A stretch of 64,000 bases of DNA from Xiphias gladius (lineage: Eukaryota; Chordata; Actinopteri; Istiophoriformes; Xiphiidae). Numbering within the stretch: the stretch's first letter is position 1; the number at the start of each line of letters is the position of its first letter. This document shows positions 28,501-64,000 of the stretch, piece after piece. Under the pieces are notes generated by a model. That model was not told the origin of the DNA and made no database searches. It worked only from the letters and a program-made list of their open reading frames with translations. The stretch lies in contig NC_053414.1 in assembly GCF_016859285.1 (NCBI RefSeq), positions 30,869,505 through 30,933,504 on the forward strand, written 5' to 3'. The translations under genes and the position numbers were made by a program.

Positions 28501-31500
28501 TGTGTAAAGGGCATAACCAAGCTTTTGATTTTGGACAATACATCTGTATTTTTCTTAAATTTTATTTACCACCTTCTTTCTCTTCAGGATAGTCCACTAA
28601 TGTCTATAATCAAAGAGGTGGGCCTTCCTAAATTACCTCCTCAGGGTAGGAATGATGAAGGACGGGACTTGTCAGAGAGGGTCCCACCTCCACGGTCTTC
28701 TTCCCCTGTGATTGGCTCCCCTCCGGTAAGGGCAGTGCCTATAGGGACCCCTCCAAAACAGCCAATGAGCCACGCTCTGAATCATCAGGTGAGTAGCATA
28801 CAACTGTTGTATTTGCTCTACACTGATTCGTTACTGATATTTTTCCTCTGTCACTCCCTCCTTTTCATTATTTCTAAGGATAGAATGAACACTAAATCTG
28901 ATGCATAGGGCTTCACAGAAATATTATTTACAACAGTTATATCCTTTTTTAAAGTCATGCAATAACATATTATGTAATTGGTGTTGTCAGTTAGCCCTAT
29001 CATAGTATGTCTAGCAGTCTTATTATTTGTAATACTTAATTTTCTGCGTTTTGTTGTAGTATTGTAGATAGCATTGTCTCTGTTAACCTCGTCCTCTTAT
29101 TTCTGTGTGCACATCTGTATCTGTATGTGTAGACCCACCATCCCACAGCAGTTCATGTGAGAGCCCCGATCCAGCACAGATACCCACCTCCTTTCCCTGA
29201 GCGTCTGTCACCCAACACCCTCCTCAATATAGCTGTGAGTTTCCCTCTCTTCCATCTCCCCCTCTATTATTCAGCTTTTTATGCATATGAAAATTTTCTG
29301 GGATTCCTTTTTATTTCCTTTAATGCCACAACAGTAGTCAGCGAATTAGTATTGATAAACTGCGCTAATCACATCATGGTCAAAGCCTTTGATGGCGTTC
29401 AAGTTGTATTTTTCCTATTTCATATTAGATGCCGTTTCACGGGGGTCTATGAAGCCGCACTATATCTTGACCAGGAAAATTCACTTCCTAGAGTCTTTGG
29501 TGGTTGCCTAGGAACTGGTCCTGGCCAGGAAATATTTTGACACATTGCCCCCCTGTAAAATGCCATTTTTTTACTTTGGTTTTTAAAGGATTAAACAAGT
29601 GAGATGTGATGTTTTAATTAGTGAGCTTTAGAGTTGTTGGTAGGTGGATTTTTTTTTTAATTTTTTTTTTTTTTTACCTTTGGATTGAGCCATGCTAAGC
29701 TAAATTTGCCGGCTTATGGTAGTAACTTCATATTTATCATACAGGAGGGGTATTGATCTTCTCATCTAACTCTTGCCAAGAAAGCAAACAAGTGGATTTC
29801 CCAAGATGTTAAACCTTTCCTTTTTAAATAAGGACTAAAGATGAGAGAGACAAACCAACTTCCAGGTTCTTTATTCCAGGTTATTATTAGCTATAAGTAG
29901 ACTTATTATGTACTGTTTATGTTCAGAACTCTCCGCTGTGCCGCGGTCCATTCCCTCCTGGAGTTGGTCCAGTTTTGTCTCAGATTCAACGGGCCCAACT
30001 GCTCAATTCTCAGGTTAGTACCACACACACCTGGCACACAGTCTTTTTAGATTGGTAAGTTGCTGCTAACTCCCTGTGTCCTAGTTTTGCATGACAAGTT
30101 TGGTTAAGGTAATACCTGTTAGAACCTAGAATAACACAATCTGTAATGAGTCTTCATGAGAAATGTGGGTACTGCAGAAGTAATGAAATACAGAAGAAAA
30201 CACATACAAATACAAATACAAATACAAAAGAAAATCTAATTAAAGGCAAAGCAACAAACATTTAACAGAGACTTTGGGAATGACGGGGGGGGGATTATGT
30301 TTTTTGACTTCAATGCTTGCGGAATGACTACTCAGACATTTGGTGAAATGCAATTGTTTGATGTCTTAGCTGTACTCACATGAGATAATCAGGTTCACTT
30401 CTATATTTTCAGACATGCTGTTAGTGTTAGACATCTTCAGCCCAGCTTTGCTGAAAGACTAGAAACAGGACAAACATTTCACCTCCGTCAAAAATGAAAA
30501 ACAAAGAAAATTTAAACAAATCCAGTACAAATGGTCTCTTATTAACTGTCAAGCTGGGGTTTGTGCAGGTTTACACCAATATGCAAACCTGACAATCCCA
30601 TTATGAAAGGAGAACTTTGCAGGTCAAGAAACTGCTTCTGGAAAGAGTAACTCAATCAGGAACAGACACAAATTAACATGACTGCAAAAACTTTATTCAA
30701 TGAAGACCTTGGCTTGACCCCGTGTGTAGGGATAGAGCCCAGTGAATAGCAGCCAATATCAGATCCTCCGAGAGAGCCTTAGAAAGGGCCTTGACACTGG
30801 TGGGGGTGGGGTGGTGGAGGGGCGAAGTTGTGAACGGCATAGACTGCAGAGACAGACAACAAAGGTGAGGTGGTATATATGTTCTGCACGTGGGCTCTCC
30901 TATCATCATTGGATGATAGAAAAGCCCACGCGCGGGACCCAAGGAAATCATTGGATAATAATGGAGAGTTAAATGTTAAATGAACTGAACTTACATAGTG
31001 CATTTCTAGTCTTATCGAGCACACAAAGTGCTTTACAGTATATGCCACATTCACCCATTCTCACACACATTCATACATCGCATTCACACACACACACACA
31101 CACCGCAATTTGGGGTATGTATCTTGCCCATGGACAATTGGACATGAAGAATGGAGGAGCTGGGAATTGCACCACCGCCATTCCAGTTAGTGGACGACCT
31201 GCTTTACCACCCAGTGTGATAAGGAGATAAGGATGGCTGACGACAGTCTTCCTGCTTGAATTTGCGCTAAAAGCGTCATTACTGACACAGCAGCCCCAGT
31301 ACTTGAATAGTTCACCTCTAAATCACATGAATCTCTCTCTCCAACTCAGTCCTCGTATGTGTCTCTTTCCAGGTGGCAGGTTTTGCCCGTGGTGGACCAG
31401 CACCTGCATTGTTACCAGGTGGTGGAGGTTTCAGGCCATTCTTTGGGGGCCCTCCTCCTCCACACAGTCACCGAATGGGCCCACTGCCCCCTCATGGCCC

Positions 31501-32456: not shown

Positions 32457-35400
32457 CAGATTTCAAGTAGACACCAAGTGAACAACAATTGTGACAATCA
32501 ATTAATGGTTTAATTCATTTATAAAGCAAAAATGCCACAGTTGCTGCGGCATCTAAGTTACATCCACATTAAGAGAATTCAATTTGTAAACATCTTTCAG
32601 GCCTTTGTCCTCCCCCAAAAATTGAGCTTTTCCAAAACTTCCTTCAGAGTGTGTAGATCTTAAAATGTTGGCCTTGATATGCATTGCGCATTATTACAGA
32701 AAATATACCATGCATATCACACGTGTGGCCTGCATGACGCAAGCAACCGGATAAAGGGGCCTGGCACCCAGTAGTAGTCTTCTACAGAATCTCCTCATCA
32801 AGATTTCGAGAGACAATGAACTCTGGTGGGTAGAGGGAGTAGCCTCTACAGGGGCAGAATCCAGACCAAGCCTCTATGGCCAGTCGAATGGCTTGTTTAA
32901 CTGTGGAAAGACCAGACTCCACATACTTCAGGGAATTGGCTCCTGACCAATGAGAACCTATCATAGATGGGATGGGGGATTCCCTTTCTGGTTCTTCCTG
33001 TTCTCCTTCATCCCTATCAGAAGAGAGATTCCCAGAGGCTGCAGTAGATGGTGCATCCTCATGTTGGCTAGAAACAGAAGCTAAAGTAGCTAGGTTATCA
33101 CTCTTATCATAAGCCTCGAGTGGCGACTCTGAAGCCGCTGTGACAGCACCAACGGACGTATCGCCAAGCAATAAATTTTGAAAAATGGCCTTAGTCTGCG
33201 CAAACTCAGATACCAATTTTTCCACTTTAAGGGCCAAAGGTTCATCACACTTCCGTTTTCCGTGTGTGTCTGCGGCGCTTAGTACTCAAGGGGGGCCTAA
33301 TGCAGGCTTTCTTGAAGGATGCAAGCCAGGATCAGCAATGCCACCGTCACACCTGGCCAACCTCATGGTCCTCTCTGCTAATGGAATTAGCTGAAATTAG
33401 TGCAAGCATTATCCATCAGTACCTGTTTTAGGTCTTCGATGCTAAGACATGACGGACATCTGTCATGGCCACCCTCTGGGCTGGCCAGAGGTACCAAACA
33501 GGAGTTGCAAACGGAGAGCATAATTGACTTAGGGGGAAGTTTTTGTCATAAACCAACAAGATGGTCTCACAGGGGGTCGGGGAACGAGCCTGTTCCTAGC
33601 CCCACAGACACAGCAACGCACCTCAACAGGTGTAACGCCCTAGCACCGATAAGGCTAGGGATTTAGCAACAGAGCAAGTAACACAGCTAAAAATCCAATG
33701 AAACCAGCATGTAGCACTGTGAGGTTAGCGATGTAGCGGTAGAGCCAGAAAAACGCAGCTACTATCCAACTCAGCTGGTGTCGCTAGACATGCACACGAG
33801 CTAGCCTAGTAGGGGTAATTGTGGGAAATACAGTTAACAAGTGCTAAGTCAGAGGCCAAAGAGTGGGGGGAAGAAAACAATACTATGCTTCCCCGACCAG
33901 CAATGACCAACACAGTCGTTGTAAAAAGGCGAAAACACTTCGACAAGACTGGTCGATGAGAACAAAGGCAGAAGCTAATACAGCACAAAATAGTAATTCA
34001 CCGCAACAGGCGGAGGCGCTTAGCGATAGCAGGGCACGCCCGCCAGGAAAATAAAGGTGGCTACTTACCTGTAAAGTCCAGCGCTTTGTGGTCGGAGTTT
34101 GGGCAAAACTGATGGCGCAGATAAGCACAGGCAATGCAGCCTCTGGAGAAAATAATAATTTGATCAACCGACGGTCTGTCCCGCTCGTTAAAAGACGTTG
34201 TCTGGGATGCCGTTTTGACGTTTGCTAACGGAAAGGGGGGTGAAGAAGAGATTTAGCTATTTTCACGTTGTTATCATTGAGTTTAAACAATAATGGAAAT
34301 AATCATAATTTGCTGAGAGTTGTTTACTCTGTTTCAGAGTTGGTTGAGGATTACTGAAGTTGTTTGTGTGTGTGTACATGTAGAATTACTATGAAAAGAT
34401 GGAGAAACGTCAGGAAAAAGAGAGAGACAGCAGCAAAAAGGAACACACCACCAAACTCATTACTCCACAGGTCGCCAAGGTTGAACATACCTACAGACCA
34501 GGTAAATGACAACAGAAGACGCCATAATATTATCTGCTCTCCATAGCATGTGATCACACCCATGATTTGAATGAATTGAATGTTGATTTGTGTTTTTTAC
34601 AACAGTTCAGTTTGCAGGCTCTTTAGGTAAGCTGACGGTCTCTAGTGTCAACAATCCCCGCAAGATGATTGATGCTGTGGTGACAACTCGCACAGATGAT
34701 GAGGTCTGTTTGCATGTTTCATTCTTTCTCTTCTGTTGACGGCATGTACTCAGTGTTTCCTGTTTGTAAAAAACCGTTTCAACAGCATTATTTTTAAAGT
34801 TGTAATTGTGCCCTATAAGACAAATAGGCTAAAATTGACTAGCAATGGAGGGACTCAGTGTTTACAACTGAACACGCCCTGAAGCTGTTTCACAGTACCT
34901 GCCTCAAACCATTCTTTTCACTGCGGGGCTGTTATTGTGAAGCACTGCAGGAGGTGCAGAGTTAAACCAACTACACAGCAACTTTCCGTAGGCAGTCAGA
35001 AAAAAGTTGCGGAAACCCTCTGCTGCACATGCAACTGATTGTTTGCCCGGATTTGGTCGCATGGACAGAAAAGCCCCTTAGCTGCCAGGTGATGGGTTAG
35101 CTCACAAGTGGTCAATATTGTTGTATATCATGTTCTTAAAAATAAGGGCTTTTCTTTTTCTATCCACCTTACGGTGCTAACCATTATCTAACGGAAGTGC
35201 TGACAGTTTGAAAGCAATTCACAGTAGAGTGTTGAGCCATATTGTTCGTATTTTTGCTCTGCTCTTTCTTGAATATTTCTAAATTTATTCATTCTTAATC
35301 AGTTCTACTTTGTATTATTTTTGAAGTCTCGTTGGTCACTTTGCCTGACTGCCTGTCTGTCTCTAGGAGAAAAGAGAGAAGCAGGTTTGGAATAAGAGAC

Positions 35401-43828: not shown

Positions 43829-44143
43829 CTGTGCAGACCACATCAATAGCAGGAGAGGAAAACCACAGCTTTAGAGTTCCACAGTCCATCAGTGCAGACC
43901 CAGATCCATCACAGTCAGAGAAAAAACGCCACAGAGGTGTCTTGTTGAGAAGAGCGATCTCTTTGGTTGAAATGGCAGAACCACAGCCCAGCTGTTTACA
44001 CGCGACACAAGCATGCTTCAGGGCCCAGCCTGCAGACTCTGCGCTCAGCATTCCCATCTCATATCCAGGGTCCACCAGCAGTTCCCCAGCAAAGCAAATG
44101 TCATTATTGTAATCTCTGAGAACTCCATCATCCACCATCACAT
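43829..44143 (-). CDS. SRCR domain exon, intact
   Basis: A 315-base exon bounded by acceptor gttcag and donor gtgaga, phase 1 at both ends, as is standard for one-exon SRCR domains. The translation runs from V-M-V-D-D-G to V-V-C-T-G. Recognisable blocks are ESAGWALKHACVACKQLGCG, PLWRFFSDCDGSGSALMDCG and a final DVVCTG. Seven cysteines are present, including the C-x-x-C-x-x-x-x-x-C cluster and the D-C...D-C...V-V-C series. There are no internal stops. It belongs to the scavenger receptor cysteine-rich superfamily, extracellular ligand-binding modules of immune and mucosal proteins. It is part of the minus-strand array described below; whether it is still translated is unclear because its neighbours are damaged. 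Confidence 0.85.
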
Positions 44144-44321
44144 CTGAACAGTCTAGCCAGGGATTAGCAGGAAAAGCCCAGGTACATTTATACAGAGAGG
44201 GGTTGCCATATCTGACAAGAAGCCCATATGTAGAAATAGTGCTGCATTTTGTAGGTTACATACAGTGTTTCTATGATTTAGACAAGGCAGGTTTATTAGT
44301 GTTAAAATTCCATTATCGTAC

Positions 44322-44622
44322 TTTAAAAAAGAAAAAGGCTCTGGTTCTCAGAAGAAGATAAGTTAAGATTGAAAACAAAGTTGTGATAAACACAGCTGTA
44401 GTTCCCTTGGTGGGAATCGTCTGCAGTAAACACGAAGTGGACATAGTGATTGACAGCTGGTCGGGTTTTGCTGTGGGTTTGGTTGAAGCCAGTGACGATG
44501 AGTCTAAAGTGACCTCCAGGGTATTGTGGTTCCACGGAGCAGCTGGGAGTGAAGCTATGGCCTCTGCTGCTGTTCATCAGTGAATCCAAAATGAAGAGTT
44601 ATATTAGGTTGAAGCCGAACAT
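44322..44622 (-). pseudogene. Ig-like domain exon with a frameshift and a terminal stop
   Basis: Acceptor gtttgcag and donor gtacga bound a module whose ends imply phase 1 on both sides. The acceptor-side frame begins with VRLQPNITLHF; the main domain continues, one base out of frame, with SFTPSCSVEPQYPGGHFRL. Further on are D-D-S-H-Q-G-N-Y-S-C-V-Y (the D-x-G-x-Y-x-C hallmark of Ig folds) and FNLNLSSSENQSLFLF. The shift falls at a TTTTG run near 44590, and a TAA (44325-44323) precedes the donor by one codon. Either lesion would end translation. A base error in the homopolymers is the alternative explanation. Confidence 0.72.
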
Positions 44623-45185
44623 CTGCAAACAAAGAAGAAAATAGAAGAATGCAGGTGTAAATGTAACAGTTTGATTGTTGGTAGTAGTAGATTAGTGAGA
44701 ATGTTAAATGTACTTTAATCTGAAATTCAGTCAGTCTTTCCTATACGGTGGTTGAGTCAAAGTCATTGCGAGTGGCAGGCAGGGGCAGATTTTACCATTA
44801 GGCAAGGTACCTGCCTGCCTAAATAATAAATGGACTGCATTTATATAGCACTTTTTGTCCAAAGTGCTTTACAATGTGCCTCTCATTCACCCATTCACAC
44901 ACTGTCCTGACCACTGGGAGCAATCTAGGTTCAGTGTTTTGCGCCACATGTAGTCAGGAAGAGCCAGAGATAAACATAATGATGTTACTATACTAATTCA
45001 TACTGTATATACTCTGTCATAACTCATTATGCTTTTTTGTGCTTCTTAGGTCATCATCAATGTACACTACAGATTAATAGACCATTCCCTAGAAACAAGA
45101 GCAACTGCAACCCCTCCACACCACAAACTTGTTGCTAAGAACACTGGACGTCTCTGGTGTGTATACATCAAGGTTCGGATCCTAC
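44623..45185. repeat. Spacer with a short dispersed repeat
   Basis: At about 44825-44960 the words atttatatagcacttttt, aaagtgctttacaatgtgcc and attcacccattcacacactg mark a truncated copy of the repeat type also seen at 30960-31235. The remainder is unassigned. Confidence 0.5.
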
Positions 45186-45189
45186 GTTA

Positions 45190-45350
45190 AAGCAAAAGGA
45201 CCAATGCGAAAATGTAGAAGTAACCTCCTCTTTTAAAAGTACAAGTTCTGCATTAAAAGTTTTACCAAAGAGAAGCACAGAAATATTCTCTAAGAAATAT
45301 AGTTAAGGAATCAAAAGTAAAAGTACTAATCTGGCTGACTAGCTCTTTTC
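45190..45350. repeat. Dispersed fish repeat (AAGTAAAAGTAC type)
   Basis: Contains aaaagtacaagttctgcatt, then aaaagttttacc, then aatcaaaagtaaaagtacta. I know this word order from an abundant non-coding repeat of percomorph fishes. Confidence 0.55.
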
Positions 45351-45987
45351 AGTGTTATAGTATTACATACTTATATGCTTTTATTGTTAAAGATGCGTTA
45401 ACATGCAGTCTAAAATAATGCCTAAGCTAGTTGAGGAAGGGTTCATTTCAACAACTTGAAGTACCGCTGGATCGGTTAATCTGTGCTAAACATCATATTT
45501 TATAAGATTACATGTTTTCTATCTAAATTCTTAATCTGCAGATCTAGTCAAGTAGAAATGTAAAGGAGCATAAAATCGAAATTATTCAGTCCGTAATCTA
45601 AATGGTGATCTTATAAAGAATTGATAAAACATTGTTGAATGATCAGATAAAAGGGGCTGGTAGAACCAAAAAACAATAAAACTTTTCAATAAAAACTACG
45701 GCGATTGGTACAAACCAGAACCGTAGACTAAGTGATTTTACATTCATGTACATGAGCTCATAATCTCAGGTACATGTAAAATGAACTAACTGTATACTGT
45801 CTTTGTAAACCTATGCCAGTATACTGTCTTTCTCGTATTTAAAACATTAATAATCATATCATTTAAAACTTCAAATATTAGTTTGTGGCAGGTTTTTGGT
45901 ATCACTCATGGAAACATTTGCTTTACTTCATTTAGAGCTCAAATCTTCATCTGCTAAATGTAAAAATGCCACTGCTAGTAATCTCAT

Positions 45988-46290
45988 CTGAGCAGACCAC
46001 TTCAACATTAGAAGAAAAAAGCCACTTCTTCACTGTTCCGCAGTCCATCAGTGCAATTTCAGAGCCGTGACAATCAGAATAAAAGCGCCATGCAGGCAGA
46101 GGTACAGCCCAAATGTAAACTTTGCTGGTTGAAACAGCAGAGCCACAGCTGAGCTGTCTGCACACCACATCTGCCTCCTTCAGACTCCAGGAGCGCCAGT
46201 AGCTCACTAGTTTCCACTCTGACTTATGCTCCACCTCCACTTTACCAGTACAGTGGCTGCCCTCTCCCACTAGTCTGACATCATGGCGCT
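45988..46290 (-). pseudogene. SRCR domain exon with a lost splice donor
   Basis: The acceptor attgcag at 46291 is intact, and the frame gives a full domain: V-R-L-V-G-E-G-S-H-C-T-G-K-V-E-V, then LKEADVVCRQLSCGSAVS, then AWRFYSDCHGSEIALMDCG and V-E-V-V-C-S. Six cysteines are visible. Where the sister exon at 43829 has cag/gtgaga, this one reads cag/atgaga, so the GT donor is now AT. Without splicing, translation would run on for about 13 codons to a TGA at 45947-45949. It could therefore be a damaged internal exon or, less likely, a terminal exon. Confidence 0.75.
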
Positions 46291-46658
46291 CTGCAATTGA
46301 ATCAGTGACAAGTTACGTACAATACACAAAAATCAAAAGTACAGAAGGATCCGATTTCTCAGAAATGTCCCTAAAAATGTCCCAATTCAGATCTGTCTAG
46401 TTAGATTCTGATCATACATGCTCACATGAAATCCCAAATCCTTTCATAGTTTGACTTTGTTCAGTATTGGTCCCAGCACTGATTACACATATTGTACAGA
46501 CAGTAGACATTATCTTGATACCCCTCCATACTACTAAAAAATAAATGTAACTATATGGTGTTCTTTTTTTTTTAACCAACATTCAGTACAGCTATAGGAA
46601 GGATGTTCGAAAATGAAGTGGATACTTTTCCTTGCTGCATTGACAGACTCAGATTTAC

Positions 46659-46970
46659 CTTTTACAGTGAGACAGACATTTATTGGCTCAGAGAAAACTT
46701 CCAAACTAAAATCATAGTTGTAATCGCATTGATTGGTCTCTTGTCGGGCATCCTCTGCAAGAGGAAAGAGGAAGATGGCCGCCCCATCAACAGGTGACTG
46801 GGAGTGGGGTGTTCATTGTGAACACCAGATTTTTTGGATAGCGAGTACATTGTAAGGTGAATAATGGGAGCAGGAGATGGCAAAGCGCTGGCCTTTGAGA
46901 AGCTTTGTGTCGTTGTCAGAATCATGCTCTTGCACGGTATATATGTCAATGTAAGGTTTACGTTGATGTT
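46659..46970 (-). pseudogene. Ig-like domain exon with one in-frame stop
   Basis: A 312-base phase 1-1 exon between acceptor ttttgcag and donor gtaaat. The first half reads KLLKGQRFAISCSHYSPYNV; the second half reads VDGAAIFLFPLAEDARQETN, then C-D-Y-N-Y-D-F-S-L-E-V-F-S-E-P. The halves share one frame but are divided by a TGA at 46813-46815. The D-A-R-Q-E-T-N-Q-C segment matches the D-x-x-Q-G-N-Y-S-C region of the sister Ig exon, with the Tyr lost. Conserved splice sites and phase alongside a single stop suggest recent decay. Confidence 0.7.
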
Positions 46971-47439
46971 CTGCAAAAAAAATAGGAATTGCAAATTTTG
47001 CAAATTAACTAGTGCATGAATATTGGAACTATGCCTGAAGAAAATAAGGTTTGCTACTACGTGTGATATGTAAGAGGAGATATGCCAAGAAACATCCAAT
47101 TTTTTAAGAATGAAGTTGCAAATCTACATTTTCACAATTTTCCGAAGGTGTCAATTTATGAAGAAAATCAGACATTTATGACTATTCTAACACTAACCCT
47201 GAGTATTGCCAAGGCATTTGAACACACTATGTAAAATAATACACATTTAATATTACCCAAAACATTAAAACTTTTAGTCATCCAGGTTTTGTATATTTTT
47301 TTATTCCTGTGACACACATACAGATAACATACGTTATCTGGATAATGATATCGTAGGTCTCTGCATTAACACCTGGTATTCCTATATGTTTTCATTATCG
47401 AGACTCTGGAACTTACTTGTTAACAAAGATGGTGTGCCC

Positions 47440-48100
47440 CAGGTCAAGGGAGCAATGCTGCGCAATCTTAATCCATGGATGGACATCATCCACTTTTTGA
47501 ATTAGTCTTGTGTCATTTGAGAATGATACGGGTGAATCACTTCTTGAAACAATCCATTTATTTCTCAGTTCAGTTGAGCTCTAAGTCAGTTGCGAGCGTA
47601 CGTGCAGGGATACACTCATTCACTGAGTGAGAGATTCAAATCACTGATTCATTTGCACGGATACACTCACTCAGTGAGTGAACATGATTCGTTTGCAAAC
47701 TCCCTGCCGACAAATCAATGACTCGAATCACTCACTCAGTTCAATGAATGTACTACACTGTGATCGTGAGCCCTAAGTGATAGTCAGTGGCTCAAACTGC
47801 CAGAATCAGGACCAGAAAGTTCATGAGTAATACTCATTAGATCAGTTGAAAAGATTTAAAAATCATTAAAAACCAGCATTCATCTCTGATGTTCAGAAAG
47901 ATAAAATCAATATAAAATCAAGAATTATAAAGAAGAGTTTGGTATGTTTGTCAAAGCGACAGCACCTCCAGTTTTGGAAGCCACCATTCAACTGTCTTTC
48001 AGTTCAGTGGGTGGGATATTCTGAACAAATCTTTTGAATGAACTGACTCTAGTGATTTGGGACACTGAAAAGAAGTCCTTTGCACGTCACTATTTTGAAT
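47440..48100. repeat. Repeat block with GAATCACTCACTCA-type palindromes
   Basis: Variants of cactcactcagtgagtg recur in both orientations between 47600 and 47760, including an 8-1-8 perfect palindrome at 47664-47680. The wider block has words such as ttgaatgaactgactctag that suggest a dispersed DNA element. Ends were not defined. Confidence 0.45.
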
Positions 48101-48149
48101 CCCTTTTTTGCAAGGCAAAAATTGCTAGCTGACTAGTACCACCTATAGC

Positions 48150-48460
48150 TTTTAGGAGGAGGAGGTGGAGTTAGATGAGTTTTCAACTTGTGGACTGGTG
48201 ACGTTTCTTCAGAATGTGGTCACGCTGTAAGATTTGCATTTACTTATTTGCATTGAGATCCGATCACAACGCGAACCTGACCACCTCCAAATGTGGTCTG
48301 GCTGATCCAATCACAGTCTGACCCCAATGCGTTCTGCGTCCATTTACACCTTGTATTAACATGCATTTTCCCTTAAGTAAATGGGGTCTTAGAGAGTGAG
48401 TGAGTGAATGCAGCTTCTGAATGATTCGCTGCTCTTCAGTGAAGAGCACAGGTAACCGCC
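48150..48460. repeat. Probable non-autonomous DNA element fragment
   Basis: The words ggtcacgctgtaagatttgc, gagatccgatcacaacgcga and tccaatcacagtctgacccc look like a dispersed repeat rather than unique sequence. No coding potential; identity unconfirmed. Confidence 0.3.
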
Positions 48461-48764
48461 GCTGGCTGCAGTGACACTAATGCTAATACTAGGTGAGCAG
48501 GAACGACAGAGAAAGTGGTTCTTGTCGAACAGCAAGAGTCAGGAAATGCTAAGTGAATTTACTGAGGGGAGTCTGTGTATTACTGCAGAGCAGAGTGACA
48601 TGGACAATGTGTGTGAACAAGTAAACAGGGCCTTTTCTTGTAACCTTGAAGTATATGGGAATGAAAGCTGTAACCACGGTAACTGATAAATGCTTATTCC
48701 CACTGATGATAAACTAGACAAAAAAGTCTTTAGTTTTGTTGCCTAAAACCAAAAAAAAGAGATT

Positions 48765-48910
48765 AGAAAAGATGAGAGATGTAGACATACAAGTGCATGA
48801 AATTCCTGGAGCTAATTTGCAGTTGCTATGGGTTGAACTGGCACAGTTCTCAAGGCGAGACTTGTTGCCTTTACACTTGAACTGTTTGGATAAGACCAGT
48901 CCTTCTCCCT
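48765..48910 (-). pseudogene. Partial SRCR domain (C-terminal half)
   Basis: After an acceptor ttttccag the minus strand reads GEGLVLSKQFKCKGNKSRLE, then N-C-A-S-S-T-H-S-N-C-K-L-A-P-G-I-S-C-T-C. This is the second half of an SRCR domain (C-x-G-x-E-x-x-L-x-x-C...C). The first half, which should hold the V-C-R-x-L-G-C box, is absent upstream. It may be a relic, or part of an SRCR domain split between two exons. Confidence 0.5.
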
Positions 48911-49839
48911 GGAAAATGAGATACTCAAATGGTATTATGATTCTGAGGAGGAATCGTGAACAATTACATAACTCACATTTGGAATTATTCATCCAGTGAG
49001 ATAACTCTGAGAGTGTGGAATAACCCTTCTTGCTGGCCAAACAAGCTAGGTCAGGTGGAATTATGATTATTATTAATCTCAATTATGATTTTCTGGAGGC
49101 AAGTCTCTTTAATGATCTTAATTATTGTTTGCAAGGTACAGATCTTTTCAGGGTAACAGACTGAGATGCAAGTACAAGAAAGCACAAACAAGTTCAATTT
49201 GATTACAAACATATTACTAATACTACATTGACAAAAACTAAACACAAAAACTAAACAAAAAAGACACAAAAAAGGAAAAGGGAAATAAAAATACAAGGCT
49301 GTTGTGATTGAATAAATGAGTAGCATAGTTCAAATCTATTTTGGATGGTTTGTAAGACCTAAATTCAGATGAAATGACTATTTCTCCGAGAAATGGTGAG
49401 TCAAATCAATGGCACAGCATCTTATTTGTAATTTGCCAATTAAAGAATAAAAACCATGAAAGCACCAGAATTTAAGCAAGTCGACTGGAGGTTTGGTGGA
49501 ATACCTGCGTGTACACTTGGGAGTCTTCTTCTTATGTTGCAGAGTTGAGTCCAAATAAACAAACTCCCAGTGAAATTGTGTTGCACTGACCAGGATATGA
49601 AGCTGGAAGGTGATGAATGAGTAGGCCAGAGTCATGATCAGGACAGGGTCTGATGGAGGAGACTCTTCTCTTTTGTTGTTGTTGTTGTTTCTGTTCTCTG
49701 TGGTTTAGGTCTGACTGCAAATACGATGCATCCATTAATGTCTTGAGACAACATATACAAAATCTAAACTAAGACTACCTTTAGGAGTCAATAAGTTTAG
49801 TTCTTTGTTCTCCTCTGTCTTATAGGGGCCATGTGCTTC

Positions 49840-49840
<1 letters not shown>
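48911..49840. other. Spacer, no supported gene
   Basis: Minus-strand frames at 49378-49635 and 49532-49735 contain a hydrophobic stretch (LIMTLAYSFITFQLHILV) that could be a relic of a membrane-spanning exon of the SRCR/Ig unit, but splice support is lacking. Confidence 0.35.

Positions 49841-49845
<5 letters not shown>

Positions 49846-49929
<84 letters not shown>
49846..49929. repeat. Long (GT)n microsatellite
   Basis: About 42 uninterrupted TG units, the longest dinucleotide tract in the window. A second (GT)n of about 12 units is at about 50048-50071. Between them the phrase acttctatctttgtgaggac and its near-inverse cctcataaagatagaagtac form an imperfect inverted repeat. Confidence 0.95.
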
Positions 49930-49933
<4 letters not shown>

Positions 49934-50079
49934 GTACTTCTATCTTTGTGAGGACCAGTTTGAGTTTTGTGATGGTTGAAGTTAGGGTAAGGGGCTAGGG
50001 AAAGCATTATGACAATGACTATCCTCATAAAGATAGAAGTACAAGCATGTGTGCGTGTGTGTGTGTGTGTGTCTTTGGG

Positions 50080-51145
50080 GCTAGGCAACATGTTTGTGGT
50101 GTTCTGGTCTGTGTCATTGGGGTACAACATGTAGAATTTCTTGGTTCTCTGGTTGTTGGTAACTTTCAAGCTGTTTGCTGTTCTTATGCTGAATCTCCTG
50201 GTGACCTTCTTCAGCTCTTTGGTCTGTTATTTAAGTTCCAAAAATCACAGTAAGATTAAACATTGGTGCCTGCTAGTCTCTCTGGGTGACTGGTTCCTGG
50301 AGGTGAGTTATGATAGTGAGGTGATATTTATCCAAGTTGTGCTTGCTCCCACGGATGCCAACCAGACATATCAAGCTGCTAGCTCTTGAGTGCAAAGGGG
50401 CTTGAAGGGTCAAAGCCTGTGGTGAGGGTTCCTTATCTTGAATCTTGCCGTTTGGAGCTCTCAGTGATGTGTTGGCCAGCATTCCTGCTGGTTCTGTTGG
50501 ACTGTCTGCTCTAACAAAACTTCAGGGGACTTTCCCATACATTAGTCAGCATCAAAGTGAAGAGACAGTGTTGGCTTGATTGACCATAGAGAAAGGCTGT
50601 CTGCATCTTCAGTGTTGTGTATCTTTAGATTCAAAATGTAGAAGTAACTGCAGTTTTAACGTAAGACAGCTCACACTGCTACTGTGTTTTTAATGCAGTT
50701 TCATGAATACTGCTGAGGCTCTATGTATGATATCAGTTTAGGGTTTCAGTGACAGCTGATACAGGTGCAGACTTTTGGTTTGGGATGGAAAATGTGTCAC
50801 ATTGTCTAAATTTCAAGGGAAAATAATTAAAAATGTTTACAGAGTCATTTCATGATCCTGTGTGGATGATCTATAATGTTGATTAAATCCTGTATTGATA
50901 CAGTTTATCAGGAGTGAAGCTCTGCCTATTTACAATAAAGTCATCTCTAATCTGCAAGGATGTCACACACAAAATTCCCTCTAAACATTGATTTCACAGG
51001 TTTTCCAGCAAGCAGCTTTGTTTCTAAGTAGTGTAAATTTCCATAAACATGAGCTATAATGACATTACCCCAATGCTGCGCACACATCCTCAATTGTTTG
51101 TAAACTGCAAACCTGTCCTTAAGCTAATGCAAGCTCACAAGCCAG
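50080..51145. other. Intergenic stretch
   Basis: Short frames only, no family motif. No SRCR or Ig exon was recognised here on the minus strand. Confidence 0.45.
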
Positions 51146-51164
51146 CACTAGCTAGGGTAGAGGC

Positions 51165-51800
51165 TTAGGGTGCTTTCGCTCCCAGGACCCATGCCCAGAT
51201 CTGGGTACACTTGACCCCAAAGTCCAGTTCATTTGATTAGTGTGAACACTGTATTCCGTTGATCCGTGACCGGGTCACCTTGAGAAGGTGGTCTTGAGTA
51301 CAGTTCATGTGTACTCGGGTACGGGTCGCATCAGGTGTAAAAGCTACTGTACCAAAACACAGAAGAACTACTATTTAGAACGTGATATAACTATTTGACT
51401 GTCCCGTTCATTGCTGATAAAGTAGGAAGGCAGGCAAGAGGATTGTTCTTGACATTGTCTCCAAAATATCAATAATAGTAGGCAGGTGTGAAGGTCGACT
51501 CCATTATATGGGCTTGGGTCTGGTGATTTTCATGCTTTTCATGCTTTTCTACACTGGAGCGACAACATAACCACGTCACATAGTTGATGATGCAAGTGCA
51601 CTCTTCTTCTTTGTGTTTATTTCGTGGATTGCAAACCAACTAGGTGCATGCCTAGTCTATTGGAGTATGTAGATAGGCGACTGTACTCAGGTACAGAACA
51701 ACATTACTAATGTGAAAGCTGAGCAGCAGGGGCATGGAGAGGAGGGGCAATCGTACTCAGGCACAGTACAAAGCAATTGTACCTAATATGAAAAGGTCCT
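51165..51800. repeat. Probable MITE or non-autonomous DNA element
   Basis: Repeated internal words (gtactcgggtac, gtactcaggtacag, gtactcaggcacagtac) occur in a region opening with gggtgctttcgctcccagga, the style of hAT/PIF-like non-autonomous elements of fish. Terminal repeats are not well matched, so boundaries are approximate. Confidence 0.4.
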
Positions 51801-52063
51801 TAGTTACTCTGAATGTGTACTGTGTTTATTTACAGCAGCAGCCTATAGTATTACTTTATTCTTAGGTCTCTACCCAAATGCAGCTAACTAGTTAACTTTG
51901 GTATTAGTTGTTGAGCTTGCTAGCTTAAGAGGCAGGGGACATGTAATTTGCAGAAAGGTGAGAGAGTGGTGACTACACTATTAACCAAGACAAGTTGACT
52001 TTACTAAAAAATTGAGGCAACCTATTACGTGAAAAAAATATAAGTAATGGATAATGGAGGAAC

Positions 52064-53151
52064 TACACTCACCAAGCACTTCATTATGAACCCCCATAAA
52101 CCTGTTTATTCATGCAATTATCAAATCAGCCAATCATGTGGCAGCAGTGTAATGCATAAAAACCTGCAGATACAGGTCAGGAGCTTCAGTCAATGTTCAC
52201 ATCAAACATCAAAATGGGGTAAAATCTCAATGCATTTGACTCTGGCATGATTGTTAGTGCCAGACAAGCTGGTTTGAGAATCTCTGAAACTGCTGATCTC
52301 CTGCGATTTTCCCACAACAGTCTATAGAGGTTACTCAGAATGGTGCGAAAAAAATCCAGTGAGCGGCAGTTATGCAGATGGAAATGTTGTGTTGATGAGA
52401 GAGGTCAGAGAAGAATGGCCAGACTGGTTGGAGCTGACAGACAGGCTACTGTAACTCAGATAACCACTCTTTACAACTGGCGAACCTTGAGGTAGATATA
52501 CTACAACAGATGAAGACCACATCAGGTTCCACTCCTGTCAGCCAAGAACAGAAATCTGTGGCTGCAGTGGGCAAAGGCTCACCAAAACTGGAGAGTTAAA
52601 TACTGGAAAAACGTAGTCTGGTCTGATGAATCTGGATTTCTGTTGAGGCACACAGATGGAATTTGGCATCAACAGCATTGATTGACCCAACCTGCCTTGT
52701 GTCAGCAGTCCAGGCTGCTGGTGGTGTAATGGCTATCTGAGTATTGCTGCTGACCATGTGCGTCCCTTTATGGCCACAATTTACCATCTTCTAATGGCTA
52801 CTTCCAGCATGATAATGCACCATGTCACAAACAAAAGTCATCTCAAACTGGTTTCATGATACATGACAATGAGTTCAGTGTACTTCAATGGCCTCCCCAG
52901 TCACCAGATCTGAATCCAGTGGAACACCTTTGGGATGTGTTATAATGAGAGATTGGCAGCATGAATGTGCATCTGACAAATCTGCGGAAATTATGTGATG
53001 TAGTCATGTTAACATGGACCTGAATCTCCAACACCATGTTTCCAACATCTTGTGAAATCCATGCAGTGATGAATTAAGGCTGTTTTGAGAGCAAAGGGAG
53101 GCCCTAAGCAGTATTAGTATGTTGTTCCTAATAAAGTGCTCGATGAGTGTA
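52064..53151 (+). mobile_element. Tc1/mariner-type transposon with both terminal repeats, dead transposase
   Basis: The ends are inverted repeats: tacactcaccaagcacttc at 52064 against the reverse complement of gtgctcgatgagtgta at 53136-53151, with 22 of 28 bases matching over the full ends. Plus-strand transposase relics follow in order: LNAFDSGMIVSARQAGLRIS (N-terminal DNA-binding part, from about 52226), QATVTQITTLYNW, then SGLMNLDF (the W-S-D-E-S-x-F catalytic region, eroded) and QSPDLNP-like sequence at about 52900. Several stops and frameshifts make it non-functional. It differs from the two other Tc1-like copies in this window. Confidence 0.8.
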
Positions 53152-53327
53152 ATTTCTTTGAGTGAAATTGACTTAAATGCTGAATAGATTGTGAGAAACA
53201 TTTTAAATTCCTTACAGCCAAATTATTTGTACTCAAAATATTTACTAAATAAAAAACTGAACATTTAAACCTTCAAGAAGGTAGGATTTATTGCAGGACT
53301 GTTGTATTAGACTGCATTAGTTTTAGT

Positions 53328-53361
53328 TTGGTGTTCCTAATAAAATGACAATTAAGTGTAT
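53328..53361. repeat. Second terminal-repeat-like sequence of the same transposon family
   Basis: The phrase ggtgttcctaataaaatgac followed by aattaagtgta repeats the 3' terminus at 53124-53151 (gttcctaataaagtg...gagtgta), about 200 bases further on. It may be a solo end left by a nested or partial copy. Confidence 0.5.
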
Positions 53362-53504
53362 ATTTACACAGTTAAGTCACATGATTATTTATTTTGTAAT
53401 GACTTTTTAATTAATTAATGCCGAACACTTTGGGGTTCCATACATCATTAACTAATCACATTAGTTCTTGGAGTTAGGTTAAAAATGCCCTGTTCACTAT
53501 TAGC

Positions 53505-53710
53505 ACATCCACACTGTAAGTAATTTCAAGCTGGTTCAACTTGCTACCCTGCTTGCTACCCTGCTGCCTTAAAAATTTGAGTTACTTGAATTTAGGTTGA
53601 ATAATTTGTTTCAAAGTTTTATTTATGAGTTTTGAAAGCAAAACCATCTGACTTAACTGAACTTGAAAAAACAAGTTCGATAAATTTAAGATATTCATCT
53701 GAATCAACAT
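53505..53710. repeat. MITE-like repeat
   Basis: Contains cacactgtaagtaatttcaa, ctggttcaactt and ttgagttacttgaatttagg, in the style of an abundant fish MITE with aagttgaatt-type units. A 12-base unit (cttgctaccctg) is duplicated in tandem at about 53541-53564. Confidence 0.5.
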
Positions 53711-54094
53711 ATCTGTTTTGCAGACAATTGTGACATTTTTTTCCTATTTACATTTTCTCAGTTTGAAGAGTTAGTTCTTCATTTAACATGTCACAGCCAC
53801 TGTGTACCAGAGTTAGCACAAATAATACATTAAAGGCTGCTCTCAGTGTCTTTGTTAAAATTTATGGAGGTAGGGGCTGAATTTGATACTAACTTTATTG
53901 TGGTTTGCATTGTTTTAATTGCTATGAGAAGAAACAACCATAGCTTAATTTGATATGTATTATAGTGTCCTGTTCCTTTCAGAAATTTGTTTAAAAAGGT
54001 ATTGTATAGGTATGTTGGGCAAAGTCACTGTTTCATTCAACTTTTCTGTTTTGACAGAAGTAAAGATAAAACAGGGAAGTCAGGTCACTGTATT

Positions 54095-54290
54095 ACCTGA
54101 GCAGATCACGTAGAGACTGGAGGCAGAGGTATCTTTCCCCTGCACTCTTTTGCGTGCTGTACTGCCTCTGCACTCCTTCAGGGTCAACTGAGTGCCTTTG
54201 TCAGGTGAAATTAACCTCCTATGCTGGTTGCTGGTCAGCGTTGTTGGTGCTGTGTGTTATGGAAACCACAGAGCCACAGCCCACACTCAA
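54095..54290 (-). pseudogene. Degenerate SRCR domain exon
   Basis: The minus strand reads V-G-C-G-S-V-V-S-I-T-H-S at about 54270-54235 (the L-G-C-G-S-x-x-S box). In another frame at about 54205-54097 it reads KGTQLTLKECRGSTARKRV and then SASSLYVICS, ending in a good donor (tcag/gtaata). The pieces are separated by stops and a frame change, so this module is dead. It is the most upstream member of the array found in the window. Confidence 0.55.
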
Positions 54291-55320
54291 AGGTCTACTA
54301 CGTTTCAGGAGTTAAAACTACAAGCAAACATTGCATGGCAAGTGACAACCTATAGGTCACAACAGCTGTGCATTCTGTACTTCAGGGGACTTGTAGAACT
54401 GACTTGTCCTTGACATAGCAATTTTCTAGTATTTACCTCCACTTTTAACTAAATATACTTTTGGTCTTACACATTTGTGAAATAAGTCGGTCCTGTAGAA
54501 AAAAACCCTCATTTTGGGTTTCACCTCCAAATCTCTATGATAAGGAACCTTGCGTAGATCCTGGTAAAGCAAATGTTTTACTACAGACATACTACAGACA
54601 TGAATACGACATAAACTGAAAGAACAATGCTTCTGCTAAGTACAAACTGCTTCACTATTCAGAGGTACTGACCAGTGGAATGGCTTGGGTGTTTTTCTTT
54701 TGGTTTCAGACTGGAGATCTCTGTCGCCAGCAAAACAAAATACAACAAATGAGAACATTTTTAATTTAGCTCTGATTTCATGTAAACACAAGTCTGAACT
54801 ACATTCAATTTTAGTAACTCACTCTGTGAAAACAGCAGGGCTGTACGCTGCACTCTCTTATGTACACGTTTGTTTTCACTCTTTTGAATAGCCTGCAGCC
54901 TATAGCTTGTTGACTCAGTACCATGACCAACATGACCATCATGTTTGTGGAAGTCATCCTTGTTGTTATGGGACTACACATCTGCTTGACTGATCACTAG
55001 CCCTGAAAGTATCTGGAACTTGCATTTAGTATCACCTCCTGAGCAATGTCCAAATTTACTGCCAGCACTCATCAAAGGTGTGCTAGGAGAACAATAGAAA
55101 CAAAAGCGGAACCTGTGCGATGGCTCCTCACTACATTACATTACATTCTTGCAGTGGAAAAATGGCTTTTGCTTTTCAGAATGTAATAACTCAAGAAATA
55201 TTTGATGGATTACTGAGGCATTTGGCTCAGACACTCATGTTCCCCTAAGGATGACCTGCAATCACTTTGATAATTCCTTGACTTTCCAACTATTTAACAA
55301 CAATTAGTCCAGTACTTTGG
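54291..55320. other. Intergenic stretch
   Basis: No further SRCR/Ig module, signal-peptide exon or RNA gene was recognised. Short frames only. Confidence 0.45.
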
Positions 55321-57054: not shown

Positions 57055-58745
57055 TCTAGCACGTCGTGATTTATGTCCTAACTTGTACTTTTTCTCGGTA
57101 CCCACCATAGTAATGCCTTATAAGAAAGCACAGCAGAATACCTCTGGGACTGCAACCGTCTGTCAGGCAGGTAATGATATGATTAAAAAGTATGTTAATC
57201 GATAGATACAGCTCAGTAAAGTACTACTTATTGTATTTCCCGACGGAGTGTGTCAACCATAGTGTCAACTCGCTGTTTACTATGAAAAAAAACTCCCTTG
57301 GCATTTGTACCTGTTGTCCACAAGCAGCTTCCCGTCCAGAACACGATTAACACTTCCGATTTTTTTCAGAATAAAAGAAGCACCACTCCAACTCTACAGC
57401 ACTAACTCAAGATTTAAAAGAATAATTTTAACACAAATCTTAAAATCCCGGCTCATGACGTTCGTTGTGTTTAAATCACATTGTACAATAACATTTGGGT
57501 CTTGGATCCTGCTCAGTTTATCCAAATGTTTTTGTTTTCTCTATTGTGCTGTAATGTTTTCTGCCACTTCAAATTTTTAGTAACAACCTGACCAATAAAC
57601 TGATCATAGCTAGACATCTTTCACAAAACTTACTATTGCATATTATTCAGATAATGATTTGCTTGCCATTTAAGGAGTGCAAAAATTTTTTTATGGTGAA
57701 TCTATTTCACCACTAATTAACTACTACTGCTGTAGCAGTTCTAATGTGGCCATAATTTGGCATAAAATATAAAGGGTAATGCAGTTTTAAAAATATTTGG
57801 TATTGTATTATTTGTGTGGTATATGAAAGACATCTGCTTTAGTAGATGAATTTGTCATCTGCTATAACTCTACCAGTGCACTTGTGAGGCCTCACAATTT
57901 TTGTTTTCACAGGAATTTCAGATACCCTGAGACAATGGATAAATAATCCATTATCTGATAGAAAGGATGAACAGTTTAAACACGTTTTCGACAAATTTGT
58001 GGAAATAACACGTGCTTTGTACACCAAACTTGTCTGCAGGTGTGTTTTAAGAGTAATCAATTCCAAATTACAGTGTGTTAGGTGTGGTTATTCAGTATTT
58101 AACCTCTGCGATGAAAAGTTGCTGCTTATAGAGGCAATTCACGTTATACAATTAAGGCAATAGTTCAGTAGTTCTGATTTAGCGTGACGGTTACCGCTTT
58201 CACACTCGCCCTTTTACTTTGAAGGCTTACACAACCAAATAAGATGTCATACCGGGTTTTTGTGCACTACTTTGAAATTGCTGGCACAAACAGCATGGTA
58301 AATCCAGGATATGTAGCTTCTAGCTACAGAAATAGAAAAAGAACGTGTTTCAGCTTTTCACCAAAATCAATAGACACCTATATCTTTAGTCACCGTCTAT
58401 AAGAACGATGCCCTTGATGTTCGGGTAAACAGGCGTCATATTTTGGCGTCATACTGCAGCGCCTTCTACAGACCGCAACGCTGCTAAAACATGCAGCACA
58501 ATAGTAAACATCGGGAGTGGGTCCCAAGCACAAACACAACATTACCAGTCCCGAACAGAAAGAGGCACAAGAAGGCGGCTCGGGTGTGGCTCCGCTGTCA
58601 GTTCCGCGATTATTATTTCCTCAATAGTTGTTCCCAGGTCTGTTGTTCAAAGTAATGTGTTATTAGCAATACGATAAAAACTCCGTCACCGCGGCATGCA
58701 GTGACATAGGACCAAACTTTATTATCTGTTCTCCAATAACGTTCA
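57055..58745. other. Spacer between the two tRNA genes
   Basis: Mostly AT-rich; the part at about 58420-58620 is richer in CpG (cgccttctac, ccgcaacgc, ggcggctcgggtg), which could mark an unidentified promoter. No exon with support was found. Confidence 0.4.
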
Positions 58746-58751
58746 ACAGGT

Positions 58752-58843
58752 GGCTCCGTGGCGCAATGGATAGCGCATTGGACTTCTAGTCAAGCACTTG
58801 AGGAGTGATTCAAAGGTTGTGGGTTCGAGTCCCACCGGAGTCG
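58752..58843 (+). tRNA. tRNA-Arg (TCT anticodon) with a 19-base intron
   Basis: The gene starts ggctccgtggcgcaatgg and ends cccaccggagtcg. Acceptor arms GGCTCCG and CGGAGTC pair; the anticodon loop is CTTCTAA with TCT. The intron occupies 58789-58807, one base after the anticodon, the canonical nuclear position. Removing it leaves 73 bases with a full cloverleaf. A and B boxes are present (tggcgcaatgg, ggttcgagtcc). A TTTT terminator follows at 58847-58850. tRNA-Arg(TCT) is intron-containing in vertebrates generally, which supports the call. Confidence 0.97.
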
Positions 58844-59205
58844 CACTTTTGTCCAGTTTCAGAATGTACGTGCAGCAATGAGGGATTTCTTGACATATTT
58901 AGTAGATCTCGTGCGTTCTGTGAAATTGTTACATTAAAGTGGCAATCTCGAAGATTTTCATTTATTTAAAAGTCTGTTAAGTCACCATCTATCGCCGAAT
59001 GAGGTAACACAAAGGTGACATAGCCTATGGTCACTGATGAAAGTACTGCAATATTTATATATTTTTACTACCATGAACTGGATGTCTGTGGCTGCTAATG
59101 CAAATCGACCACTTCCTACTGCTGCCACAGTGAGCTTGTTGTATGCACCATTCTTTAGCTAACTTCCATTTTGCTCTGCCTCTTTTGCTGTTATTTTTAC
59201 ACACA
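58844..59205. other. Non-coding spacer
   Basis: No feature recognised apart from the polymerase III terminator directly after the tRNA. Confidence 0.45.
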
Positions 59206-61686: not shown

Positions 61687-63213
61687 GCCCCTGTGCCGTG
61701 TGAGGAGCAGGTGGTCCGTTTGGAAGCGGAGATTCAGGGCCTGATGAACGTGATCAATGACCAGCACCGCTACATCCAGGAGCTCCACAACAGCCAGACC
61801 CAGCAGCTGGAGCACATACCTAACTCACACCTGGGCCCTGAAAACCTGTACAGAGGTACAGCTAGGTTTCGATGAGGGATACATACTGCGCACCAAAGTG
61901 TTTGCTTGCCTTCCCCAAAACACTTCCTATAGTTTATCAGTCTATCTGTTGGCTTTCCTACCTGCCTAGCTACTTGGACACACATAGAAAGGGTTGCTAA
62001 TAGTGACACAGCCCTTAGAGAATTATCACCAACTCTGCAGTTCACCCCAGCTCTACAGAGCTTTTTAGCCTTTTTTAGCTCAATGTTTTGTCTGCAGGAG
62101 GTGTTTTAAACAAAAAGCCCTGACAAACCCACTGTAAACAGCAGACAGACTCAGCCAGAGACCAGCTGGTGAACATAGTGGAGCATTTAGCAGCTAAAGA
62201 GCCAGATATTTCCTTCAGGAGTTGATGGAGACCAAAAACGGCTAGAAGGGAGGGAATATTGGACTTAACACTCAACTAGTGATCTGAATCAAGAATCCAA
62301 ATGAATGCTAATCCCGCTTTGTGCCTACTATGTGTATCCATAGGCAACTGTTTGCTGGCTAAAGCAACTTTGTAATAGTGCAGGTTTTGGTGTGGAGTTC
62401 CTCTGCCTCCGAGTGTCCAAGAAAAACCTTTCCATGTGTTCAGACAAGCTCAATGGAAAAATTAAAGATTTTGGCAAACCAAAATGGAGCATATCCCCAC
62501 AGACAAACTTTTATCAAGCGGCCAATCAGCAGCTAGCATTTTGGAGATAAGTCAACACACCAACACACGCATATGTTGGTGTGTTTCTGTTGCCTTCTAC
62601 TGCATCCAATTCATATGCTGTACCTACCTGTTTTGAATATTTCACCTTGTATATTTGTGTGTGTATGTGCAGACTGTTCCGAGGTGTTTGCAGATGGTAA
62701 CGTGGCCAGTGGACTCTATGTGATTCGTCCAGACAGCTCTCCCACCGCACTGAGTGTTTACTGTGACATGAATGATGGAGGAGGATGGACGGTCTTCCAG
62801 AGGAGGAGAGACGGCAAAGAGAGCTTTGACAGGTGTGTGTATGTTTGTGCTTTAAACATATAAAAAAAAGGAATTTATACTCTACATGGGTCAGGGAATT
62901 TGACATTGCAATCAGTGTGTGCACTGTGTGCAGAGCGTGGGTGGAGTACAAACATGGATTTGGGGACCTCTACTCACCTGATGGAGAATTCTGGCTGGGC
63001 AATGAACCTCTACATTATCTCACCTCCCAAGGTGTGTGTACCTGTGTGTGTGTTTGTGTGTGCGCGTTTGGATGGTGTATCAAACATTACAGGATGGTTG
63101 CCTGTGTAACTAAGTGTCTTCTAGGAAACTACGACTTGCGCATTGACATGGAGGACTTTGAGGGTAATCAGCGTTACGCAGAGTACAAGAACTTCAAAGT
63201 AGGCAATGAAAAG
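61687..63213 (+). CDS. fgl1-like: Fibrinogen-like protein, closest to FGL1; partial gene, four exons visible
   Basis: Exons 61687-61855, 62673-62832, 62934-63031 and 63125-63213 join in frame (phases 1, 2, 1, 0) through GT-AG introns. The first visible exon has a Cys-led coiled-coil segment (CEEQVVRLEAEIQGLMN...YIQELHNSQ), like the short coiled coil ahead of the FGL1 domain. The rest is the N-terminal half of a fibrinogen-related domain: DCSEVFADGNVASGLYVI, VYCDMNDGGGWTVFQRRRDG, GFGDLYSPDGEFWLGN, LHYLTSQGNYDLRIDMEDFE and RYAEYKNFKVGNEK. The motif order and the short N-terminus resemble FGL1 more than angiopoietin-like or ficolin proteins. FGL1 is a secreted, mainly hepatic factor. The upstream signal-peptide exon is not identified and the 3' exons, with the Ca-binding and C-terminal part, lie beyond the window, so paralogue assignment is moderate. 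Confidence 0.88.
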
Positions 63214-64000
63214 GTAAAACAGAAAGAAAAGTTAGAAACAAGTTAACAAATCATTAAGTCTCTTGTTGAGGGTTGTTTCAAGACTTTATTTTGCAAGACT
63301 TGCAAAATAAAGCCGCTTCCTCCGATTAGTTTACATTTTCAGCAAGTTATCTTCCTCTCTTTTAACTTGTTTTTGGATAATGATTTAAATTCTCCAGAAT
63401 GGATTAACTTGATTTAATCATGTGTCTGTCCATATTCCACTGCACTCTTTTTCTGTCCTGTAAAACCAGCTTGTAACCCACTCTGTGTGTCCGTCTTTCC
63501 TCCAATTTGCATTTTTTTTCTGTCTTTAAATTCGCCTTCTTCCATTCCCATAACAGTAGGGGTTTTATTTAGACTATGTATGTTCTTTGTATTTTATGAC
63601 TATGGAAACAACAGCAAGGATGTCTGGTTCCAGGTCTGCCAGCTGTTTCTGTCTCTTTCCTTTTATTCTCCACTCATCCTTTTTTTTCTTTTTCTCCTCT
63701 TCATACGTCTACCACTTAGTGCTCTTTAATTTTCCTCTCAATGCTTTTTCCTTTTCCTCTTATCTCCAGCCATCCCCATTGCCTCCTTTCTCTTTCCTCT
63801 ATCAATCCCATCCCCTCGTAATAATATTTTGATGTCATTTAGTATAATCATGCTGCTCTATTCAGAACAAAACCTCATCAGTCCATCCTAGATGGAATGT
63901 AAAATACGCTACATTTCTTTTAGTCCACACTTTTGATTGTTTATAATGTTTTTTATTACGATATTGGTATTTTTTCCTCACTGAATGGCACTCTGGATGC
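63214..64000 (+). other. Intron of the fgl1-like gene, to the window end
   Basis: Pyrimidine-rich at about 63640-63800. A plus-strand frame at 63487-63729 was checked for the next fibrinogen-domain exon and does not match. An inverted repeat (tttattttgcaag / cttgcaaaataaa) lies at about 63286-63311. Confidence 0.6.

Follow-up and report, generated by a model that had tools for sequence, protein, structure and literature searches.

Probable Remnant of an SRCR-Ig Receptor Locus in the Genome of Xiphias gladius

Introduction

A row of receptor exons that carries a stop codon, a lost splice donor and a frameshift raises the question of whether it still belongs to a working gene or is what is left of one. 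Such a row, made of SRCR and immunoglobulin (Ig) exons, lies on the minus strand of Xiphias gladius contig NC_053414.1 (C15). It occupies positions 43829-54296 of the stretch analyzed here, which is 64,000 nucleotides long (C15:30869505-30933504) and is called the window; positions are those of the window unless a contig is named. The initial annotation of the window described six modules with graded decay and considered either a unitary pseudogene or a working gene that skips its dead exons. The modules were reanalyzed, and relatives were searched for in the same genome (690.8 Mb, 1298 contigs; C4, C7, C15 and C18 are contigs of it). The locus is very probably a degenerating remnant of a birth-and-death fish SRCR-Ig receptor family, an ordinary dying copy.

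Results and Discussion

The modules were compared with Pfam (cut-offs, 26.1 bits for SRCR and 21.8 bits for Ig) and were located with a profile-to-DNA aligner that allows frameshifts and stops, using reversed sequence as the control. In a separate scan, the SRCR and Ig sequences of an array on C7 were used as queries with a frameshift-tolerant aligner and reversed 64-kb controls. Four good SRCR or Ig exons and two weaker SRCR remnants were found on the minus strand. The order proposed before (SRCR relic, SRCR half, Ig with stop, SRCR with lost donor, frameshifted Ig, intact SRCR) stood; four of these modules are firm, and the half and the relic, which have weaker scores, are likely.

Two of the four SRCR modules exceeded the Pfam cut-off. 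The SRCR exon at 46290-45988 (type 2, 51.8 bits) has its acceptor and is open for 303 nucleotides up to the lost donor, which reads TCAG/AT where the family has TCAG/GT. The SRCR exon at 44143-43829 (type 2, phase 1-1, 28.7 bits) is open across 315 nucleotides between an AG and a GT. Judging from the borders, each of these domains lies within one exon. Their translations have six and seven cysteines, respectively; SRCR group B has six to eight and group A has six, according to the accessible part of PMC2906472, and a count of six fits group A as well as group B.

The two Ig exons are damaged in different ways. The one at 46970-46659 (312 nucleotides, phase 1-1) retains both splice sites, AG and GT, and has one in-frame TGA. 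Neither of its halves matched a Pfam family, and it scored 63 against 47 for the best control when the C7 Ig was the query. The Ig exon at 44622-44322 scored 192 against the same control value, shares 50% identity with the C7 Ig across 77 amino acids and reached 18.1 bits in Pfam, under the cut-off. It has an AG, a TAA at its 3′ end and no normal donor. The frameshift reported in it was found again; the earlier description was incomplete, as the exon is also shortened, with 301 nucleotides up to the nearest GT versus 330 in the C7 exon (about 29 fewer).

The half SRCR (48908-48791, 13.7 bits in Pfam, below the cut-off) corresponds to a C-terminal half like that of the C7 type-1 SRCR and has an AG and a GT. 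Its score in the scan with the C7 queries, 63, exceeded the best control, 57, by a narrow margin (next control, 42). The idea that it is the normal second exon of an SRCR gene with two exons was rejected, not strongly. Three loci with half-profile matches were inspected, and second exons, where they were seen, begin earlier in the domain; the half also resembles the single-exon type 1 of C7. The relic (54296-54097), which was not among the modules scored with Pfam, consists of a core and a C-terminal end with a frameshift between them and has no clear 5′ half. Its donor is present, and it terminates exactly at TGCTCAG/gtaata, the border form of the C7 family exons. In a two-piece test it scored 80.6 (best control, 71.4), and a plus-strand place that was rejected (see below) scored higher, 83.1. 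The relic fell below the listing in the scan of the window with the C7 queries. A family-profile scan of 94 kb around the locus (C15:30859505-30953504) listed neither the half SRCR, nor the relic, nor the Ig exon at 46.8 kb, and no convincing further SRCR or Ig exon was found in it.

The stop, the changed donor and the frameshift, the last in a shortened exon, affect three of the four good modules, in addition to the two remnants; the locus also has truncations and a piece of a transposon that lies between modules. The claim that the damage differs from module to module was borne out for stop, donor change and frameshift, all of which are present. The decay is not smoothly graded, as the lesions are few and their order is not monotonic. 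The phase 1-1 arrangement was confirmed for the exons of 315, 312 and 303 nucleotides, all multiples of three, and does not extend to the half SRCR, which would be 118 nucleotides long, and thus not phase-symmetric, if bounded by its AG and GT.

The relatives in the genome provide a background for these lesions. PF00530 had 98 matches, many of them spanning only about half of the profile. In the similarity searches, which score the best candidates only, the better SRCR of the window matched 35 places, of which two lie in the window. Outside it, the highest score was that of a place on C7 (42% over 100 residues), and weaker, shorter matches reached up to 50% over 47 amino acids. The Ig query matched five loci, at one place each, and outside the window its best match was on C7 with 50% identity. 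A DNA search with an Ig-plus-SRCR stretch found, besides the stretch itself, the sister of it within the window and 92 nucleotides at 74% identity on C15:23.17M; 45 nucleotides of a window SRCR match C7 DNA at 89%. The lesions thus lie in the only copy of the locus among the best candidates, as the best-scoring sequences elsewhere are 42% (SRCR) and 50% (Ig) identical.

In these relatives each SRCR or Ig module is a single exon, and those whose borders were checked are phase 1-1. The array at C7:28382526-28387496 has the order SRCR2-SRCR1-SRCR2-SRCR1-SRCR2-Ig. It shares with the window the type-1 and type-2 SRCR exons, an Ig of the same kind, CAG/GT phase-1 borders and the presence of broken exons; unlike the window, it is mostly open, and it is only 42% (SRCR) and 50% (Ig) identical to it. 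Its second SRCR2 is frameshifted; farther along, another SRCR2 is frameshifted twice and an Ig contains a stop. The second SRCR1 exon keeps its donor GT, preceded by A instead of G. The SRCR1-SRCR2-Ig triplet at C15:23165633-23167646 has decayed: it contains a stop, frameshifts and a donor that reads GA. It is the same kind of assemblage as that of the window, again with a stop, a lost donor and frameshifts and with Ig DNA 74% identical over 92 nucleotides; it differs in being on the opposite strand, 7.7 Mb away, and in having other lesions. At C18:13415199-13417925 an SRCR and an Ig are both open, and another open Ig-like frame was recognized by eye between them. The C4 locus is open and has nine SRCR places and one matching Ig; a second Ig-like frame was recognized by eye, as was a hydrophobic segment with a tail. 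Since open and broken exons are also mixed within the C7 locus, this pattern belongs to the family and is not peculiar to the window. As a separate observation, the wider C7 array (L011/L012, C7:28382526-28394765) includes two nearly identical SRCR type-1 exons, a recent duplication.

Could all of this damage be an artifact? Assembly or sequencing errors within an intact gene are an extremely improbable explanation. The lesions were read from the assembled sequence of one individual alone, which leaves room for such errors; against them, the damage exceeds single bases, with one Ig shortened, one SRCR reduced to a half and another to a relic, and other copies of the family, on C15:23.17M and C7, are similarly damaged.

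The relationships and constraint of the SRCR exons were then considered. In a tree of 12 chosen SRCR domains, the two SRCR exons of the window group with moderate support (85/83) inside a well-supported type-2 set of six (99/98). The end branch of 44143-43829 (1.44) is about four times that of its donor-loss sister (0.35); the 5′ half of 44143-43829 aligns poorly, which may lengthen its branch. Of four relative-rate tests, each with a different outgroup, two were significant without correction (P 0.027, 0.049, 0.33 and 0.29). Of the 21 residues invariant across the four outgroups, 17 were kept in the exon at 46.1 kb and 12 in that at 44.0 kb. The ratio of nonsynonymous to synonymous substitution rates (dN/dS), which had been suggested as a check on each exon, was estimated pairwise by NG86 with bootstrap ranges; being pairwise and near saturation, the values tell more about the past than about the current state. 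Compared with C7, the donor-loss SRCR appears constrained (0.36, 0.16-0.58) and the open one gives little sign of it (0.85, 0.51-1.37, which fits no constraint). The Ig exon at 44.5 kb gave 0.51 (0.26-0.93) versus C7, and the two window SRCR exons gave 0.43 (0.17-0.88) versus each other, a value that averages both lineages. The open exon, which had been called intact, is indeed open with good borders; it is not the best preserved of the series, as it is the faster-changing copy and the better constrained SRCR is the one that lost its donor.

These values bear on the proposal that the locus is a live gene in which the dead phase-symmetric exons are skipped and 44143-43829 stays in frame, as happens with exon 3 of the primate lineage III KIR genes. 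The reading frame is unharmed by the gain or loss of a phase-symmetric exon, and the phase 1-1 modules, with lengths divisible by three, together with one open exon that has both borders, speak for such a gene. Nonetheless, the open exon gives little sign of constraint versus C7, and the gene would require splicing to ignore the stop-bearing Ig exon, which would be expected in a transcript because it keeps both splice sites. A first and a last exon would also be needed, and none was identified in the 94-kb SRCR/Ig scan or in a search for a tail like that of C4 (best E 0.88), although similarity is a poor guide to exons of this kind. The open exon can be explained without selection on it, since with lesions spread evenly over four modules the chance of at least one undamaged module is 0.84 with four lesions and 0.74 with five. 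We therefore regard it as unlikely that the locus is a live gene of this kind, and there is only a slight chance that it is still transcribed and spliced around the dead exons, yielding either a receptor of reduced size or an SRCR fragment that is secreted. If it were, it would be a fish parallel of KIR exon-3 skipping, over several exons at once, and a good example of how frame-neutral exons allow a receptor to become smaller and remain functional. The C7 array is a better site than the window for testing exon skipping.

Known systems provide precedents for broken domain exons in live genes. Bovine WC1, a group B SRCR multigene family, resembles the locus in that ruminant WC1 genes have one exon per SRCR domain and in that extra SRCR exons with stops or frameshifts occur outside and within the genes, according to the accessible text of PMC2681482; that family is mammalian, and the same text mentions no Ig exons. 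In KIR exon 3, as in the window, a broken Ig exon can be omitted with the frame kept. The difference is that constitutive skipping is reported in expressed KIR genes in the portion of PMC7516082 available, whereas the window is known from sequence alone. From these partial accounts, broken domain exons can sit in, and in WC1 also beside, live genes; nothing at the window favors this state of affairs.

The lost donor suggests a different way in which the locus might be alive, as a truncated gene. Beyond the lost donor, the frame of 46290-45988 stays open for about ten codons before it meets a stop (open reading frame 45947-46312), so that this exon could be the last one of a gene for a short secreted SRCR protein, and its dN/dS of 0.36 versus C7 would agree with this. 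The exons upstream of it, however, are an Ig with a stop, the half SRCR and the relic, and no first exon was identified. A truncated live gene is thus highly improbable.

The pseudogene interpretation, in turn, gained support from the three kinds of lesions in adjacent exons, the lack of a close copy elsewhere among the best candidates and the lack of a convincing further SRCR or Ig exon in the 94 kb around the locus. The locus would no longer encode a working receptor. In the history that we propose, single-exon phase 1-1 modules, a structure that was observed, would be duplicated or deleted with the frame left intact. One type-2 SRCR exon may have been duplicated to give 44143-43829 and 46290-45988, as suggested by their grouping in the tree and by 75% DNA identity over 109 nucleotides. 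Constraint would then have weakened, and the lesions would have fallen independently.

Several observations weigh against a dying copy. The exon at 44143-43829 is open over its entire length and has good borders. The dN/dS values for the SRCR pair and for the Ig exon versus C7 indicate that constraint acted on the locus during part of its past, and two of the four relative-rate tests were not significant. Furthermore, six hydrophobic 20-mers were found on the minus strand of the window, at 34440, at 30234 and at four places below 30 kb, and those at 34440 and 30234 could be candidate membrane exons.

Taken as a single locus, the remnant changes nothing. Its value is as a snapshot of birth-and-death evolution in fish SRCR-Ig receptors, with an Ig module common to five loci of the genome and with open and broken exons mixed within both the window locus and the C7 locus. 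No paper on a fish SRCR-Ig family of this kind was found among titles and abstract openings, mostly outside subscription journals.

Other Features of the Window

The transposon fragment lies on the plus strand between the relic and the half SRCR, at 52754-52942, and matches the DDE_3 transposase family (PF13358, 37.6 bits). DNA at 50646-50953 and 52080-53154 is repeated at 76-85% identity in flank L015, and the second of these stretches holds the DDE_3 fragment.

A plus-strand peptide, RRLGCGSAVS (58573-58665), was rejected as an SRCR candidate, probably a chance match, without proof. Its place beat the controls in the 94-kb scan (68.9 versus 45.5) and in the two-piece test (83.1 versus 71.4), where it stood above the relic. 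The rejection was made because many frameshifts are needed to align the remainder as an SRCR and a tRNA-Arg begins at 58752. A few other places exceeded the best control by at most 5 points, such as +12260 (48 versus 44).

The tRNA-Arg gene (anticodon tct) was identified by ARAGORN at 58752-58844 on the plus strand. On the same strand, two adjacent open frames at 62537-63240 correspond to consecutive portions of the fibrinogen C-terminal domain (PF00147, 59.1 and 61.8 bits) and are putative exons of a fibrinogen-related gene.

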